A DNA stretch of 36,013 bases, from positions 1 through 36,013 of the IMG/VR virus record IMGVR_UViG_3300046011_005255, one strand, 5' to 3'. Position numbers and translations under genes: made by a program. Source of the DNA: a virus. Under the pieces are notes generated by a model, which saw only the letters and a list, made by a program, of their open reading frames with translations, had not been told where the DNA came from and ran no database searches. Positions 2,628 through 10,679 of this stretch are shown in pieces (the stretch's first letter is position 1; each line of letters begins with the position of its first letter).

Positions 2628-3215
2628 TTAACAATTCCACTTTCTTAATGCTTTATTTATTCTGCTGTTAGGATCGTTAGCAGTTTTACTAGAAGTTAAT
2701 CTTTTTTTCATTCCACCCATTCGAGCACAGAATGATTTCCTTCTCTTGGCAGACTTAGAACCTTTTTTTAATTTTGAAGGTTTTGTTGTCACAGCCATAG
2801 AAAGTTTTGATCCCGGATTAGCAGCACGGTAGGAAGCTATTCCTTTTTTATTTAATCCACCCTCTGGATTTTTTCCTTCGCTTCTTTGCCAAGCAGGTGT
2901 ACCTTCTATTAACTGCATAAAAAAGTTAGAATATATTTCAATTGAGTCATTCATTTTCTTTTTTCCCTTTGCAAAAGTTGCTACATTTGTTGGTTTAGGA
3001 CCTGTATTCCCCGCTGCTCTTTTTCTTTTTACTGCTGATTTTCTTTGACCTTTAGACATGGAATGTGCTTTTGCTAAAGGCACGCATTTAGGATACCCTT
3101 TACGCTTCTCCCCCTCTTGCCTTCCGCATGGCTTGAACCCGCCACCTTTTTTTGGTGCTCCAATGTCAACCCATTTTTCAGCAACCCATTTTCTCAAGTC
3201 TTCATTTATATTCAT
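2628..3215 (-). CDS. Basic Cys/Lys-rich protein, two small domains of unknown function
   Basis: A 195-residue, strongly basic protein with two separable parts. Residues 1-70 hold a motif seen in small virus-associated domains of unknown function (I associate it with DUF5872): WVDIGAPKKGGGFKPCGRQE, then GYPKCVPLAKA and a run of Lys/Arg ending KRKRAAGN. Residues 106-195 hold a second motif (I associate it with DUF6321): RSEGKNPEGGLNKKG, then PGSKLSMAV, RRKSFCARMGGMKKR and the C-terminal NKALRKWNC. Between them lies L102-I103-E104-G105, which fits a T4-type prohead protease site. The protein is encoded between gp13-like and gp14-like genes, overlapping its upstream neighbour by ATGA. A nucleic-acid-binding or packaged head protein is plausible from charge and position. 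Function is unknown and the domain names are from memory. Confidence 0.75.
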   Translation of the reverse strand: MNINEDLRKWVAEKWVDIGAPKKGGGFKPCGRQEGEKRKGYPKCVPLAKAHSMSKGQRKSAVKRKRAAGNTGPKPTNVATFAKGKKKMNDSIEIYSNFFMQLIEGTPAWQRSEGKNPEGGLNKKGIASYRAANPGSKLSMAVTTKPSKLKKGSKSAKRRKSFCARMGGMKKRLTSSKTANDPNSRINKALRKWNC

Positions 3216-4888: not shown

Positions 4889-6523
4889 TCAGAGAGCATT
4901 ACCCCACTTCTTAGTTACCGCAACGAAGGGGTAAGTAAGGAAGTTGAGTGAGGGGCCTACGATTCTAATTACACGGTAGAATCTTGTGTTAGGCTCGATA
5001 GCAACCTTACCATAACGGGTGAGGATACCCTTTCTTGGTTGGAAGCTATCAGGATCAGTTACTGTTGGCAACTGTTGTAGTGGGATGTAAGGAGCATAGA
5101 TGTAACCAGCATCCATGGCGTTTGAACCCTTATAACCAACCATTATCTCGTCATCTGGGAACATTGGATCTACATAGAGATCGTAACGACCCATGAACTT
5201 GCCTCTAAATTGAATTGAGTTATTGGTGATATTGGTAGGACCATCTTCTCTAGCAATTCCACCTTCCAACTTAGCAGCACTCTCAAGTAATGATGCAACA
5301 ACAGGTGAAGTTAGCAACCAGCTACCGGGACCACGCATTGTAGTCTTGTAGATATCTTGAGCAGCAAAGTTAATTACTGCCAAGAGGTTTGCATAAACTT
5401 CTCCGAGGTGACGGGGATTAAGTGTGCCAGTGAAAGCACCAAAGTCTACTACAAAAACATTTCTGTTGCTTGGTAATGCACCAAACTGATTAGCTGTGGC
5501 CGTAGCATTCAATACAGGGAAATCATATGTAAACTGTCCGGGAACAAAAGTTCCTGTTGCACCAGTATCTTTGTTAGCAAGACCATCAAAAGTACCAAAG
5601 TTTAGATAGCTGCTATCCATATTTTGTAATGAAACACCACCTAGTCCAGAAGTTGCATCATTACGGTTAAATCCATAAGCAATCATACGCAAATCTTCGA
5701 TTAGCTCACGGTCTATTTCCAACTGTAGTTCTTTTGAAAGAAGATCAGTTAATTCTCTTTCAAGATCTAGGTTGTGGTAAGCCTTGAGGTCTTGTGATGC
5801 TTCAAGAGTCCACAATGCACGCATCTTACGAGTACGAGCAATGACAGCCTCTTGTTCAATGTGCATGGTTAGTTCAGGAATACCTGTACCATTTAGACGC
5901 TCACCTGCACTCATTACCCATCCGTAAGTTGCGGATGCATTTGGGAATGCAGCAATCTTGCCGCCCATTGTGCCTGAAGGAGCACCATTACCATAAATTG
6001 CTGAAAGTGAGTTTGTTTGTAACACATTTGATAGGTCGAAACCAGTTACAGCAACATCACCATCAAGGCCAGTGCCTGTTCCAGCAGTTGATCCTGTATA
6101 GAATGTACCAGCATCTGTACCAGAAGCTGAACCGATTGGGTTTGAGGTCAAACCACGGTAGGTCATGTTAAACTTGCTGTAAACAGTCTGAGCTTCATTT
6201 GTACCATACTTACGGCTGTGACCTAAGTAGAATACTTGGCTGACTGGAGCTTGCATTGGCTGAACGCCCACGAAGTTCTTAGCAATCAGCTCAGGGAACA
6301 CTCTTCTTACGAGTGGGAAAGCAAACTTAGCGAAGGTTCCTAGGTGACCAGTTGTGGTGGCTCCTGTTGAAATTTCTTCACGAAGTTTATCTTCTACTAT
6401 AGCTTTAGCTTGATTTTCTAGAAGTTGGGCTGTTACTCTACGGTCGTAGTCGTTATTAATGCCTTCAAGTACAGGCCCCCACTTCTGCGTTAATTTTTCA
6501 TCATGAATATACATTGAGTCCAT
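4889..6523 (-). CDS. 23: Major capsid protein, gp23-like
   Basis: Forms the hexamers of the head shell (HK97 fold). The product is 544 residues (T4 gp23 is 521). Recognisable parts are RRVTAQLLENQAKAI near residue 30, the segment FAFPLVRRVFPELIAKNFVG followed by VQPMQAPVSQVFYL (the 'LVRR..P.LIA....GVQPM..P...IF' signature of T4-type capsids), ARTRKMRALWTLEASQDLKA, and near the end EPNTRFYRVIRIVGPSLNFL. A ribosome site (AGGA) lies nine bases before the first ATG, and M4 is a less likely alternative. T4 gp23 loses an N-terminal propeptide to gp21. Here the only near-consensus site early in the protein is V18-L19-E20-G21, so the cleavage position is uncertain. The gene is 14 bases after the scaffold gene and followed by a strong terminator. 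Confidence 0.95.
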   Translation of the reverse strand: MDSMYIHDEKLTQKWGPVLEGINNDYDRRVTAQLLENQAKAIVEDKLREEISTGATTTGHLGTFAKFAFPLVRRVFPELIAKNFVGVQPMQAPVSQVFYLGHSRKYGTNEAQTVYSKFNMTYRGLTSNPIGSASGTDAGTFYTGSTAGTGTGLDGDVAVTGFDLSNVLQTNSLSAIYGNGAPSGTMGGKIAAFPNASATYGWVMSAGERLNGTGIPELTMHIEQEAVIARTRKMRALWTLEASQDLKAYHNLDLERELTDLLSKELQLEIDRELIEDLRMIAYGFNRNDATSGLGGVSLQNMDSSYLNFGTFDGLANKDTGATGTFVPGQFTYDFPVLNATATANQFGALPSNRNVFVVDFGAFTGTLNPRHLGEVYANLLAVINFAAQDIYKTTMRGPGSWLLTSPVVASLLESAAKLEGGIAREDGPTNITNNSIQFRGKFMGRYDLYVDPMFPDDEIMVGYKGSNAMDAGYIYAPYIPLQQLPTVTDPDSFQPRKGILTRYGKVAIEPNTRFYRVIRIVGPSLNFLTYPFVAVTKKWGNAL

Positions 6524-6537
6524 TTTTTAAATCCTAA

Positions 6538-7176
6538 TCAACGAGAAAAAGGCATTAATTTCATAGCCTCTGGGGATAAGAACGGGTTACCTACCTGTTC
6601 TCTAATAGAGACTGGTTTTTCTGATTCAGAAATAATTACAGCCTTCTCAGAAGAAACAAATTCTTCATCTCTAGAGGCTTCTAAATTTCTCACATTTTCA
6701 ACCAATCTCATTCTGTCCTTTTCAAGCTTTCTCGTCTTTTGCTCGGAAAGGTTTACTTTGCTAGATAGAACTTTAATTGTATTTTGTAATTTTTCATTCT
6801 CTAGAACTAGCTTGTTAATTTGCTCAGATAGAACATCAACTTCCTCTTGTAGTTCGGAGGATTGCTCTTTTATCTCATTAACAACGCTCTTTTCATCTTC
6901 TTCAGAAAGTTCTAGAGTCATCAAAGTTCTAACGGATTCAAATAGTTTTGCGTTTCTGAAAACTTCGTTTTCTTCTGCTAACTCAGTAATAGCTTGTTCC
7001 TTTAATTGATCTATTTTTGTTCTTAAGAAAGCATTAACTTTTGCTTCTAATAAACTAATTTTAGATTCAACTTGTTCATTTATTACTGAATCAACTAGGG
7101 TAAATATTTTTTCTACTGTGGATTCATCTAATCCTTCAGGTAAAATCTCTGCTATATTTGTTAACTTTTTATCCAT
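6538..7176 (-). CDS. 22: Prohead core scaffold protein, gp22-like
   Basis: Probable assembly scaffold, degraded by the prohead protease before DNA packaging. The product is 212 residues (T4 gp22 is about 269). It is highly charged, Glu/Lys-rich and mostly helical, with a long predicted coiled coil at about residues 95-175 containing repeated leucines (EQINKLVLENEKLQNTIKVL). The C-terminus ends NPFLSPEAMKLMPFSR, like gp22 proteins that finish with a short aromatic/basic tail contacting the shell. Two T4-type protease sites are visible: L12-P-E14-G15 and L42-L-E44-A45. The start has AGGAGC upstream. It sits directly between protease and capsid genes, the conserved 21-22-23 order. Confidence 0.85.
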   Translation of the reverse strand: MDKKLTNIAEILPEGLDESTVEKIFTLVDSVINEQVESKISLLEAKVNAFLRTKIDQLKEQAITELAEENEVFRNAKLFESVRTLMTLELSEEDEKSVVNEIKEQSSELQEEVDVLSEQINKLVLENEKLQNTIKVLSSKVNLSEQKTRKLEKDRMRLVENVRNLEASRDEEFVSSEKAVIISESEKPVSIREQVGNPFLSPEAMKLMPFSR

Positions 7177-7287
7177 GGAAAATGCTCCTAGCTTTAAATA
7201 GATACTATCTATGTTATAATTTTTTAATTTTTTTTAAAAAATGTATTAGTTAGTATTAACTCCGGTTTAATAAATACTTTTCAAATT
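7177..7287 (-). other. AT-rich gap between protease and scaffold genes, with a 15-base dyad
   Basis: A 111-base non-coding gap. It holds a perfect dyad ATAGATA-C-TATCTAT at 7198-7212, just upstream of the scaffold ribosome site. The minus strand also reads TTATAA immediately before the dyad (7213-7220 region), which could be part of a -10-like element. A long A/T tract covers 7220-7240. The gap interrupts an otherwise tightly packed operon, so a promoter or processing site for the abundantly needed scaffold and capsid mRNA is plausible. I cannot identify a T4-type late promoter consensus (TATAAATA) here. Confidence 0.4.
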
Positions 7288-8790
7288 TTAAAGTCTTCTT
7301 TTTAGACGGTTAACTAAGTTATTAAAGGCCCCACTTTCTGCTATTAATTTTCCTATACCTATGTAAGCCTTAGATGAAGTTTCCATTTTTGCCTTCATTG
7401 CAGCTTCTTTTTCGGCTTTCATGCGTGCGCGGTCTGCCTTCAATATGACAGCCAATTCATCTCTTGTACCTTGATCCTCTAATCCTGCCTGTCTAGATGA
7501 CAACCCTCTTCCCATTCCTGCTAATCCAGATGCTATTCGGGTTGCCTTAGCATCCATAGCATCTCTAGAGGCTCCTTTTATTTTTGGATTTTTTAACTTC
7601 CTGTTATAAGAGGCTCCTCTAGCGGCTCTAATCGTTGCTAACGCCCCCCCTAAAGTTCTTTGATTTCCACCCTTGTCAAAAGTTTCTTTAGGTGTTGGGG
7701 GTGCTTCTGGGGTAGGTGTTGGGGGTGCTTCTGGGGTAGGTGTTGGGGTAGGACGGGGAGTATCAAATATAGGTTTTCCTGCATATCCAGCGTCAAAACC
7801 TTTTTTAGCTGCACCATAAATACCTCCTAGACTCTGCCCTATTTTACCAAATAATCCGGGTTTTTTAGGTGCTACTGCTGTGGCTGCTGGTGCTGCTGCT
7901 GGTGCTCCAGCAGGAGGGTCTGCAAAAAATGCTTGCCCTGCACGCTTGACTCTACCTTTTAAGCTTTCAAAAGCTTCATCAATATTCTCATTTTCTTCAC
8001 TTAATTTTTTTTTTAAAAAAGCTAACTTTTGCATCTTTTTTAGATTTGTTTTAGCTTGCTTCTTGCCCTTACCTTTAATAGATTTTTTACCTTTTCTCTT
8101 TCTTAGCATAGCTAAATCAGAACCTTCAATTTGACCATCACGATCAACATCTAAGTTTTTTTGTTTACCAATCAGTTTTGCTTCATTATATTGTGAGTAA
8201 GCTTCATCAAATCTTGCTTTAAGAATCTTTACTAAATTAGATTCTTTTTCTAACTTTTGTTTAGATTCATTTATAAACTTAGATTTCTTTGATTCAGTTA
8301 ATTCTGGATAGGCTCCTCGTGTTGAAGGGTCAGCAACCAAATCAAATGTAATTAAATTAAAGTCTTCATTGACTATCTTCTTACCTTCTGAGTTTTCTGA
8401 TAAAGTCCCCATTCCTCTCGATGATATACCTATTTTTACACCACCATTAATTAAGGCTCTAGCAGTAAGACCAGCAGGAGTATTTAAAATTTCTGCTTCT
8501 CCAATAACCTCATTACCCTTCATTTCTAGCTTGGTTATTAGGTGTGATGCATTAGATAACTTAACAGTATCATTAGTAGGGTGGTCTAATTCTCCACAAA
8601 GTCTTCTGCCTTCAATCAAAGGTTGAAGTTTATCTAGTTGTTTATTTAAAACATTTTGGGGATAAATTCTACCATTGCTATTAGATTCTTCAGCCCTTTG
8701 GAATACCCCACGAACGCGCATGGTCTTCCCTTCAGAACCTTCGTTTATTATTTGTAATCTCTCAATTAAAAATACATCAGTTAATAGCAT
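7288..8790 (-). CDS. 21: Prohead protease, gp21-like, with long C-terminal extension
   Basis: Serine protease that matures the prohead. The protease domain is residues 1-165: the His region LCGELDHPTNDTVKLSN (H70), the Ser region KIGISSRGMG (S123/S124) and a FDLVADPSTRGAYPE segment (D150/D154). These match the H...SSRG...DP pattern of T4 gp21/U35-type proteases. T4 gp21 is about 212 residues. This one is 500. The extension holds a 12-residue EF-hand-like loop at 214-225 (DVDRDGQIEGSD) followed by LAMLRKRKGKK, a Lys-rich segment, an Ala/Pro-rich segment at 291-310, a Thr-Pro repeat at 346-368 and a basic, helical C-terminus. T4-type cleavage sites appear at E17/G18, E272/A273 and E485/S486, so self-processing is likely. 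GGAG lies nine bases before the start. Confidence 0.88.
   Translation of the reverse strand: MLLTDVFLIERLQIINEGSEGKTMRVRGVFQRAEESNSNGRIYPQNVLNKQLDKLQPLIEGRRLCGELDHPTNDTVKLSNASHLITKLEMKGNEVIGEAEILNTPAGLTARALINGGVKIGISSRGMGTLSENSEGKKIVNEDFNLITFDLVADPSTRGAYPELTESKKSKFINESKQKLEKESNLVKILKARFDEAYSQYNEAKLIGKQKNLDVDRDGQIEGSDLAMLRKRKGKKSIKGKGKKQAKTNLKKMQKLAFLKKKLSEENENIDEAFESLKGRVKRAGQAFFADPPAGAPAAAPAATAVAPKKPGLFGKIGQSLGGIYGAAKKGFDAGYAGKPIFDTPRPTPTPTPEAPPTPTPEAPPTPKETFDKGGNQRTLGGALATIRAARGASYNRKLKNPKIKGASRDAMDAKATRIASGLAGMGRGLSSRQAGLEDQGTRDELAVILKADRARMKAEKEAAMKAKMETSSKAYIGIGKLIAESGAFNNLVNRLKRRL
7691..7750. repeat. 24-base tandem repeat coding a Thr-Pro-rich linker
   Basis: Two identical 24-base units (7691-7714 and 7715-7738) and a partial third (7739-7750), each beginning GGTGTTGGGG on the plus strand. 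They encode an eight-residue TPTPEAPP-type repeat in the protease extension. The repeat is G/C-rich against an AT-rich background. Slippage at this site would change linker length in steps of eight residues without breaking the frame. Confidence 0.9.
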
Positions 8791-8791
8791 A

Positions 8792-9214
8792 TTATTTTAC
8801 TCCGAATTTCTTTTTCAAACTTCTACTTCCATATTTAGAAGCTAATTTTTTATTTCCTTCACCATATCTTAATTTTGTTCGTACAGAATGTTTTTTTATT
8901 GAATTAAAACTAGAATCAGGTGTGGAACTTCCGGGACTAAACCCTTTTGCGATTTTACCTCGACCACTCTTAGCACCCCATTTTCCCTTAGATACTACAT
9001 ATAATCTATTTGCAGCTTTAGTACTAAAAATGTCTCCATAATTAGCTTGGTCTAAAGCTTGTTTTATACTCCCATAAGTAGTAACTCTAGCTTTTGTTGG
9101 TAAGTGTTTTTCTTTTTTAGTACCTTCCCTAGATGTATAATAAGATCTACCCGCCTCTGATCCACGGGCTTCAAATATCATTTTTATTTCATCTAGAATT
9201 TCAACTAAATTCAT
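8792..9214 (-). CDS. Basic head protein with a capsid-targeting-like N-terminus
   Basis: A 140-residue protein. Its first 15 residues are hydrophobic and acidic (MNLVEILDEIKMIFE) and end in I13-F14-E15 before A16-R-G, which fits the T4 prohead protease consensus ([L/I]-x-E before A/G/S). The remainder is strongly basic, with GKWGAKSGRGKIAKG and the C-terminal KLASKYGSRSLKKKFGVK. T4 internal proteins, which are packed in the head and ejected with DNA, have this same plan: a short targeting peptide ending in x-E-A, then a small basic mature protein. The gene overlaps its upstream neighbour by ATGA and sits directly before the protease gene. The internal-protein role is inferred. A core or decoration protein is the alternative. 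Confidence 0.68.
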   Translation of the reverse strand: MNLVEILDEIKMIFEARGSEAGRSYYTSREGTKKEKHLPTKARVTTYGSIKQALDQANYGDIFSTKAANRLYVVSKGKWGAKSGRGKIAKGFSPGSSTPDSSFNSIKKHSVRTKLRYGEGNKKLASKYGSRSLKKKFGVK

Positions 9215-9663
9215 TTCTTACCTTTAAATTTCTTTAATTTTTGAGCAAAAATTAAAACAGCATCTGAAGATTTTTTATTTCTTCCAGATGGCTCTGCTAC
9301 TTTAGGTCCACTCATTGAACATCCACAACATCCACCAGTAGTCATTTCAAGAAGTTGTTTAACATCTTCTAATAAAGTAATTAATTTATCTGCTTTTTCT
9401 TCAGTTATTAAATTTACTTGTTGTTTGTTTTCTACTATGCTTTGTTTAGGTTTAATATCTGGTTTTTTTGTTTGTATTTTTTTTCCTAATACTTGGGACA
9501 TAAACTCTTCTGGAACTACCGTTTCAGAAATATCGAGTTGCTTTTCAACTTCAGGAGTTTTAGTTACAAACTTTTTAGCTTTTTGCGGAGTAGTCATTTC
9601 ATTCATTATCAACTGCTCCGCAAAAGAACCTATGCTAAATCCAGATTGTTTTAAAGTAGTCAT
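9211..9663 (-). CDS. Small head-cluster protein with a CCxC motif
   Basis: A 150-residue protein of unknown function. The N-terminal half is polar with EEFMSQVLGKKIQTKKPD around residues 52-69. A helical segment (TEEKADKLITLLEDVKQLLE, 87-106) is followed by TTGGCCGCSMSG at 108-119 with three close cysteines, and a Lys-rich C-terminus. The cysteine cluster could bind a metal or form disulphides, but there are too few other Cys/His residues to name a fold. It lies among head-core genes, after a stem-loop and before the basic internal-protein candidate (ATGA overlap). A core or portal-adjacent assembly role is likely from position only. Confidence 0.62.
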   Translation of the reverse strand: MTTLKQSGFSIGSFAEQLIMNEMTTPQKAKKFVTKTPEVEKQLDISETVVPEEFMSQVLGKKIQTKKPDIKPKQSIVENKQQVNLITEEKADKLITLLEDVKQLLEMTTGGCCGCSMSGPKVAEPSGRNKKSSDAVLIFAQKLKKFKGKK

Positions 9664-9686
9664 AGAATAATCTAAAAATTTATATA

Positions 9687-9713
9687 GCAGCCAAGTTTTT
9701 TATACTTGACTGC
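9687..9713 (-). terminator. Stem-loop between head-core genes, possible weak terminator
   Basis: Nine-base-pair stem with one G-T pair (arms 9687-9695 and 9705-9713) and a nine-base A/T loop, directly after the acidic core gene. On the minus strand it is followed by an A/T stretch with five T about ten bases downstream, instead of an immediate T run. It could be a weak terminator or an mRNA-stabilising hairpin that changes the ratio of the acidic protein to the genes beyond. Confidence 0.45.
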
Positions 9714-9720
9714 TTAAAAA

Positions 9721-10299
9721 TCAGCAAGACTTCTTGCCCTTCATAGGCATTTTCATTTTGCCTTTTGCAGGCTTCTTAGACATCTTAGCTTTTTTTCCGG
9801 CTGGGGTAGAGGATCCATATCCACCCATATCGCCTTCTTCAACTACATCATCAGACTCTTCTTCATCATACTCATCATCCGAAATCTCATCGTCTGAATC
9901 TTCTTCGGAATCCTCATCTAGCATCTCTTCTGATTCCAAAAGAACTTCGTTTACACATTCAGCTATGATTGATTCTAAATCTTCTTCACTTTCATTGATG
10001 CTGCTAAGACGATCTAAAACATTAGCTATTATATGTAAATGCTCTAGAACTCTTTCTTCATCTATGGCTTCAGGTAGGAGGGAAGTGCAAAGTGGGCAAA
10101 CATGAGTTTCCCCTTCTTCAACAACTTCTTGCTCTTCTGAATCTTGGATTTGCTCGTAACCTTGAGCATCAACAGCTTCTTTGAGGCTTTGTTGGCCCTT
10201 TTCAGCCTTGCCCTCATTTACATTTAGGCCAATTTTTCCCCAAGCGGCTGACTCAAGGAGCTTATTACGAAAATCATCATTTAAATTAATATGTTGCAT
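9721..10299 (-). CDS. Acidic prohead-core protein with possible zinc site
   Basis: A 192-residue protein with three parts. Residues 1-30 contain a T4-type protease site (L14-L15-E16 before S17) just before AAWGKIGLN. Residues 66-90 contain HVCPLC (C68, C71) and EHLHI (H87, H89), a C-x2-C-x15-H-x-H spacing that could hold zinc. Residues 103-157 are extremely Asp/Glu/Ser-rich, and the tail 165-192 is Lys/Met/Gly/Pro-rich, ending GKKSC. The acid-then-basic plan and place before the protease recall small T4 prohead core proteins (gp67/gp68 type), though it is longer. GGAG lies eight bases before the ATG. The core role is inferred and no zinc family is recognised. Confidence 0.65.
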   Translation of the reverse strand: MQHINLNDDFRNKLLESAAWGKIGLNVNEGKAEKGQQSLKEAVDAQGYEQIQDSEEQEVVEEGETHVCPLCTSLLPEAIDEERVLEHLHIIANVLDRLSSINESEEDLESIIAECVNEVLLESEEMLDEDSEEDSDDEISDDEYDEEESDDVVEEGDMGGYGSSTPAGKKAKMSKKPAKGKMKMPMKGKKSC

Positions 10300-10376: not shown

Positions 10377-10679
10377 TTAGTATGCTTTTACATTTAACCC
10401 GTTATTGGTATATAAACTATCTGATTCAGAATGAGGTGAAGACCCATGCTCGGGTAATCCATCCTCTTCAACTACTATAGGAATATTATTAATAAATACT
10501 TTACTAATATTATTTGGATTTTTAATTATTGCAGGATAAGTAGCAGTCGGGTGAGGTTTAGTTTCATCCCCTTCAACTACAACTAACTTTTCACTTATAA
10601 AAACATTATTTTGATTTTGTACCAGTTGTTCAGCCCCACAGGTAGTTCGATCAGTTTGGACTATTAAAGAAAAAGGCAT
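10377..10679 (-). CDS. PAAR-like spike-tip protein
   Basis: Probable metal-pinned cone that sharpens the central tail spike (T4 gp5.4 / PAAR family). The product is 100 residues, the usual size. It has short strand repeats, NVFISEKLVVVEGDETKPHP and KVFINNIPIVVEEDGLPEHG, the 'V.vnG.pv...GD...H' pattern of PAAR proteins. Four residues could form the three-His one-Cys metal site known for these proteins: C14, H43, H78 and H83. There is no fused effector domain. It begins one base after the cysteine-rich gene, far from the gp5-like spike gene (31820-32902). Call is by motif, moderate to good. Confidence 0.72.
   Translation of the reverse strand: MPFSLIVQTDRTTCGAEQLVQNQNNVFISEKLVVVEGDETKPHPTATYPAIIKNPNNISKVFINNIPIVVEEDGLPEHGSSPHSESDSLYTNNGLNVKAY

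Follow-up and report, generated by a model that had tools for sequence, protein, structure and literature searches.

The head-core block and its candidate protease sites

The 36-kb IMG/VR virus record IMGVR_UViG_3300046011_005255 (36,013 nucleotides, all of it referred to here as the window) belongs to an uncultured marine T4-like phage, and a block of its minus-strand genes forms the head-core operon. Its products are, in order, an acidic protein, a 150-aa protein, a basic protein, a protease, the scaffold and the capsid protein. A first-pass annotation of this DNA had proposed that the acidic, basic, protease and scaffold proteins carry a common site, [L/I]-x-E followed by A, G or S at residues 14-17, serving as one signal for targeting to the prohead and for trimming by a T4-gp21-type protease. 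All four motifs are found at the predicted places in the translations, with the Glu at residue 16 of the acidic protein, 15 of the basic protein, 17 of the protease and 14 of the scaffold (Table 1), and the near match described in the capsid protein (E20) is present as well. The annotation had also put the chance of such a match at no more than a few percent per protein; we obtained 1.7-2.3% for each by shuffling residues 2-41. Four together are beyond chance, as had been argued: the shuffle product is 1.5e-7, and the probability of at least four matches among 26 genes is 0.001, a value that leaves the clustering of the four genes uncounted. The same 4 of the 26 window genes of at least 80 aa match whether the Glu is placed at residues 14-17 or 9-20, and all of them lie in the head-core block. 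Among 682 non-head genes on 16 related contigs, 12 (1.8%) have [LI]xE[AGS] with its Glu at 14-17. As a control, nine known gp21 substrates of T4 itself were tested, and eight of them match at E5-24, versus 17 of 254 other genes. One of these eight is gp23 at E18, which is not the position where gp23 is cut, and a motif match is therefore informative but not proof.

Conservation of the sites in relatives

To gather relatives, viral contigs were scanned three times, the queries being the protease, the scaffold and the basic protein, which yielded 33 to 48 clusters (<90% identity) per family. Searches of cultured phages by tblastn with the basic, scaffold and acidic proteins gave zero matches, as did a search of GTDB genomes with the scaffold, which thus offers no clue to the host. 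Since E20 and E36 of the capsid protein are also nearly invariant, we dropped conservation alone as a criterion and relied instead on conservation amid variable flanks and on searches with masked columns.

The product of gene 7288-8790 is a T4-gp21-type S77 protease, in line with the enzyme that the first-pass annotation had assumed. It matches PF03420 (E 1.7e-25), scores 90-93 bits with the S77 profile against a curated cut-off of 27, and is related to the T4 gp21 structure 5jbl both by sequence (E 1.6e-22) and by fold (Foldseek E about 1e-12, TM 0.73-0.77 depending on the target). T4 gp21 was the only PDB relative found by sequence, and by far the best fold match. H70 (GELDHP) and S123/S124 (GISSR), which we take from family knowledge to be catalytic, are invariant in 25 sequences. 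At the N-terminal site, E17 is Glu in 37 of 37 clusters, with L/I at P3 and G/S/A at P1' in all 37 and a variable P2. An AlphaFold2 (AF2) model places strands at residues 2-8 and 10-16, with E17 directly after. The X-ray structure of T4 gp21 reportedly has the N-terminus blocking the catalytic centre, a sign that the enzyme cleaves nine residues off itself (PMC9958956), and PMC9026906 points to LIE9. On the basis of the predicted strands and the reported self-cleavage of T4 gp21, E17 is probably a self-activation site rather than a targeting tag. Just behind the S77 domain, at 8110-8150 on the minus strand (residues 214-227), there is an EF-hand/dockerin-like loop, LDVDRDGQIEGSDL, with counterparts DLNKDGEITKADVL and LDTDGDGKIEASDL in relatives; its match to Dockerin_1 is below the cut-off, and a calcium-binding loop would be unusual for a prohead protease.

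The Glu of the basic protein (E15) is kept in 35 of 36 clusters in surroundings that vary freely, with 12 different residues at P2 and 15 at P4. The window protein has a 3-residue insertion upstream of the site that most relatives lack, and the site is kept regardless. In its AF2 model the first 19 residues have low confidence and the folded part begins at about residue 44. We considered the basic protein as a counterpart of gp68 and rejected this both by sequence (hhalign probability 0.1%, no similarity) and by fold, a search of BFVD with this low-confidence model having given no significant match. In the acidic protein, E16 is Glu in 39 of 41 clusters and P3 is Leu in 40 of 41. The codons for the conserved Glu are a mixture of GAA and GAG (22 and 17, respectively, at E16), indicating that the constraint acts on the amino acid. 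A tandem second copy of the acidic protein (L007:4703-5137) has L-I-T in place of LxE. Alignment of homologues, which the annotation had proposed as a check, thus showed the Glu to be kept in the basic, acidic and protease families, and not in the scaffold, where it alternates with Asp. The fixed placement at residues 14-17 does not extend to relatives, as most basic-protein relatives have the Glu at residue 12.

For the 150-aa protein encoded between the acidic and basic genes a shared site was rejected, the P1 column containing Q in 15, E in 13 and other residues in 12 of 40 clusters. This protein has a GCCGCSM stretch and the acidic protein a CPLC motif, either of which may be a metal or disulfide site in a prohead protein.

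Scaffold E14, one of the four proposed sites, had to be abandoned as a shared cut site. Among the 32 clusters with a residue at this position, 25 have Glu and 7 have Asp, and Asp at P1 blocks processing of T4 IPIII (PMC9026906); E14 also sits inside an otherwise conserved block. Two better candidates, E44 and E80, lie further along the scaffold (Table 1). E80 falls opposite LFE115/S of T4 gp22 in a profile alignment that is weak (hhalign E 0.0045 but a probability of only 7.7% over 127 columns). The scaffold gene lies next to gp23, as fits gp22. The near match in the capsid protein fared no better. E20 lies in the place of the uncut LLE18/G of T4 gp23, and cyanophage gp23 lacks this Glu; T4 gp23 loses 65 residues by a cut after LTE65 (PMC9958956). 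We therefore rejected E20 as the maturation cut. E49 fits instead, with Glu in 43 of 44 clusters, L/I/M at P3 in 42 of 44, a variable P2 and mostly A or D at P1', and by its position it is the expected equivalent of T4 E65.

A module repeated in protease tails and in basic proteins encoded after gp13

Most relatives share the long basic tail of the window protease; T4 gp21 has only 212 residues. In these tails, usually in one or two copies, and in basic proteins encoded after gp13, we identified a repeated module, Y-x-x-[IM]-G-x-x-[LIM]-A-E/[ASMG]. A search of the tails with Y/W-x-x-[IM]-[GA]-x-x-[LIM]-x-E/[AGSM] gave 31 hits in 37 cluster representatives, the mean for shuffled sequences being 0.056; 13 of the 37 lack a copy. 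The window has one copy, near the protease end (E485), and the proteases of relatives often have one near residues 255-300. A position-specific scoring matrix (PSSM) trained on the protease-tail copies only was run over 1034 genes from 17 contigs at a 0.1% shuffle threshold. Of the 35 hits above threshold, nearly all fell in the protease gene, in its immediate successor or in the gene that follows gp13, which almost confines the module to the head cluster; the exceptions were two hits of borderline score and, in a single contig, two small genes close to the terminase/portal genes. In L165:863-1469 (G003), two small neighbouring genes carry the module (YKRLGFVIAE and YKRIGFVLAE) upstream of terminase/portal-like genes, ~50 kb from the protease.

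Of 53 distinct complete genes that come first after gp13, 42 carry the module, anywhere from residue 16 to 438. The proteins that bear it have 80-527 residues and a K+R content of 17-28%. When the module was masked, only one pair was still similar to a protease tail. A post-gp13 gene (L039, 5497-6936) and a protease tail (L042) have 40 residues in common at 95% identity, which suggests sequence exchange between the two places. With the P1 column masked in the search, Glu was still found in 78 of 86 copies, and with P3, P1 and P1' masked, 87/91, 80/91 and 78/90 copies obeyed the protease rule at these positions. Beyond LxE, the module is constrained at -9 (Y/W), -6 (I/M) and -5 (G/A).

Where the protease is short, a separate next gene often begins with its own N-terminal LxE (ISE/A in L009, LLE/V in L028, ISE/G in L016), and small genes behind some longer proteases begin in the same way (IAE/A in L047 and L090). 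L044 and L053 fit an N-terminal LxE after the protease less well. Small genes such as those of L047, whose copy is MNNTYKNIGLIIAEA, and L090 are a good fit to the pattern of an N-terminal capsid-targeting sequence (CTS); the acidic and basic leaders fit it loosely, and many other copies are internal, unlike in T4. By its sequence the module resembles the T4 CTS, used internally as well as N-terminally, and its recurrence both in the protease tail and among basic proteins that are otherwise unrelated strengthens the idea of a shared signal.

Other features of the window

Gene 2628-3215 encodes two basic domains, a phrog_23735-like domain at residues 6-83 and DUF6321 at residues 114-193, joined by a possible cut linker (Table 1). 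Three near relatives have counterparts of this linker in the same place, retaining a Y and a site of the LxE/[AG] type (SYINTFLLIME/A in L009, SYINIFMSITE/A in L044 and AYVSLIYSLFE/G in L028), and a fourth, L008, has VSE/G. We found no paper on DUF6321. Directly upstream of the head-core block, 10377-10679 encodes a PAAR-like protein (phrog_281; PF05488 below cut-off).

Table 1. Candidate protease sites and related features of the window
Feature	Coordinates	Strand	Remarks
Acidic core protein, N-terminal 16 residues, ending L14-L15-E16 then S17	10252..10299	-	gene 9721-10299
150-aa protein between the acidic and basic genes	9211..9663	-	no conserved site
Basic protein, N-terminal 15 residues, ending I13-F14-E15 then A16	9170..9214	-	gene 8792-9214
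Protease, N-terminal 17 residues, ending I15-N16-E17 then G18	8740..8790	-	probable self-activation site
S77 prohead protease domain, residues 1-200	8191..8790	-	gene 7288-8790
Protease, long basic low-complexity C-terminal tail, residues 201-500	7288..8190	-	K+R 20%, D+E 10%
Protease tail, second possible internal site, I-D-E272/A273	7972..7983	-	motif match only
Protease tail, module KAYIGIGKLIAE485/S	7321..7368	-	PSSM 21.4 bits vs threshold 12.4; one of the 30 training copies, score not independent
Scaffold, L12-P13-E14/G15	7132..7143	-	site of the first-pass annotation; judged not a dedicated protease site
Scaffold, better candidate L-L-E44/A45	7042..7053	-	E in 30/32 clusters
Scaffold, better candidate L-F-E80/S81	6934..6945	-	E in 32/32 clusters
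Capsid protein, V18-L19-E20/G21	6461..6472	-	probably not the maturation cut
Capsid protein, expected maturation site L47-R48-E49/E50	6374..6385	-	by position, T4 LTE65/A
Possible cut linker EIYSNFFMQLIE104/G joining the phrog_23735-like and DUF6321 domains	2901..2942	-	gene 2628-3215

A tagging and cleavage scheme and its alternatives

We consider it probable that a single gp21-type scheme of tagging and cutting operates across the head-core proteins and has been extended by the module. The protease would free itself by a cut after its own E17 and would then, like gp21, act on several core proteins by cutting after [L/I/M]-x-E and on the capsid protein by cutting after E49. In the acidic and basic proteins, the N-terminal site would end a short removable leader, which probably also serves in sorting into the core. 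In relatives, the leader together with its site may have become a module, reused in the basic tail of the protease and in the variable basic proteins encoded after gp13. The latter would probably be packaged internal proteins that enter the core by way of the module and are detached or released on cutting. We infer cleavage, targeting by the leader and packaging of the basic proteins from the pattern of conservation and from the T4 precedent (PMC9026906, PMC9958956). A further-reaching proposal, which we regard as evenly poised, is that the tag of this clade is a reusable N-terminal, internal or C-terminal module and that fast-changing basic proteins, among them the fused protease tail, are strung around it, loaded as precursors and cut apart in the head by the maturation protease, which would make this a polyprotein-like scheme in a bacterial virus. 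As to the signal originally proposed for four neighbouring proteins, the basic and acidic sites are kept and the module is found elsewhere; scaffold E14 and capsid E20 drop out, and protease E17 probably serves in activation.

Several observations weigh against a common scheme. According to a T4 review, the tag of IPII/IPIII does not recur in the other core proteins (PMC9958956), and in T4 it is reported from internal proteins alone, so that T4 provides no direct precedent for a core-wide tag. In the acidic protein, conservation continues beyond the cut (D8, R11, A18 and W20, the last at 100%), so E16 is not singled out, and the N-terminus of the protease is predicted to form strands instead of a helical leader. 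Several proteases have a first module copy (HWHRIAEM types) that lacks an in-register Glu, though an earlier I-A-E is present, and the post-gp13 genes of the window's own subclade lack the canonical module, having only a looser LIE/G linker.

The best-placed alternative, which we nevertheless think unlikely, is that these are ordinary gp21-type degradation or activation sites, that the N-terminal segments have no role in sorting and that the module is no more than a helix well suited as a substrate. T4 gp67 (LIE6/A), gp68 (IPE21/A) and gp21 (LIE9) likewise match near their N-termini, T4 core proteins are degraded, and a tag is proven in internal proteins only (PMC9958956). However, the constrained positions of the module outside LxE exceed what the protease rule needs, and the module recurs in proteins that are otherwise dissimilar. 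Quite improbable, in our estimate, is that the conserved N-terminal helices, like the module, serve as contacts in assembly, being coiled or amphipathic helices that bind scaffold or capsid, with LxE/A incidental. In favour of this, the acidic N-terminus and the scaffold N-terminal block are conserved on both sides of the Glu, and the basic leader is predicted to be helical, with low confidence. Yet E15 of the basic protein is the sole strongly conserved residue in its vicinity, with P2 free, and the module keeps its Glu and obeys the protease rule at P3 and P1' even when these columns are masked. Chance matches of a short motif in glutamate-rich helical N-termini, of which T4 gp23 E18 and scaffold E14 are false or doubtful instances, are very improbable as a general explanation in view of the background rate, the shuffle product and the conservation in three families; at the basic and protease sites they are already largely refuted, and they are still a reasonable reading of scaffold E14 and capsid E20.

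Should the module prove to be a targeting-plus-cleavage tag, it could serve to find packaged, and possibly injected, proteins in uncultured marine T4-like phages, and it offers a direct test of how far the T4 tag principle reaches past the T4 internal proteins. Besides the T4 review, we found no literature on capsid targeting in cyanophage.

Comparison with known systems

The window protease is close to T4 gp21. It shares its profile and fold, the [L/I]-x-E rule, the N-terminal site in the protease and the propeptide site in the capsid protein, and the core genes lie directly upstream of the protease; it differs in having ~300 extra basic residues with internal sites. The module in turn is like the T4 CTS, read off the T4 record as MKTYQEFIAE/A in IPII/IPIII, in placing aromatic and hydrophobic residues ahead of I-A-E/A, with a highly variable basic cargo behind, and in some relatives it is N-terminal (for example MNNTYKNIGLIIAE/A in L047). 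In contrast to the T4 CTS, it is longer (Y at -9, G/A at -5), in many cases lies internally or close to the C-terminus, can occur twice and is also found in the protease's own tail.

In phiKZ and SPN3US (gp175, gp245), many head proteins are cut after x-x-E by a diverged gp21, and the protease has a C-terminal propeptide. All but one of the 14 cuts mapped in SPN3US take off an N-terminal propeptide (PMC10052503). These phages differ in having A or S at P3, and the sections consulted describe no repeated module.

T4-GC119, a cyanomyovirus gene cluster with a C-terminal DUF6321, has domains in common with window gene 2628-3215, and its linkers often end in xE/GAAW just before DUF6321. It differs in lying near gp15/gp16/gp17 and in its linker sequence, which is of the SWRDD type in two of the genomes. 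Among cyanophages, SWRDD linkers occur in three GC119 linkers of ACG-2014f and in two adjacent P-SSM2 genes. The T4-GC119 proteins of cultured cyanophages (L219-L222, L214) consist of small basic domains strung together and are annotated in S-B43 as 'structural protein'. In the few genomes examined, these linkers suggest a wider theme.

For multi-domain chains freed by a protease, the nearest idea, by analogy only, is that of the phage polyvalent proteins, in which a multi-domain chain is delivered with the DNA and released by peptidases (PMC5512222). There the peptidase domains are embedded in the chain, whereas in the scheme above the cutting would fall to the head protease, at a repeated linker.

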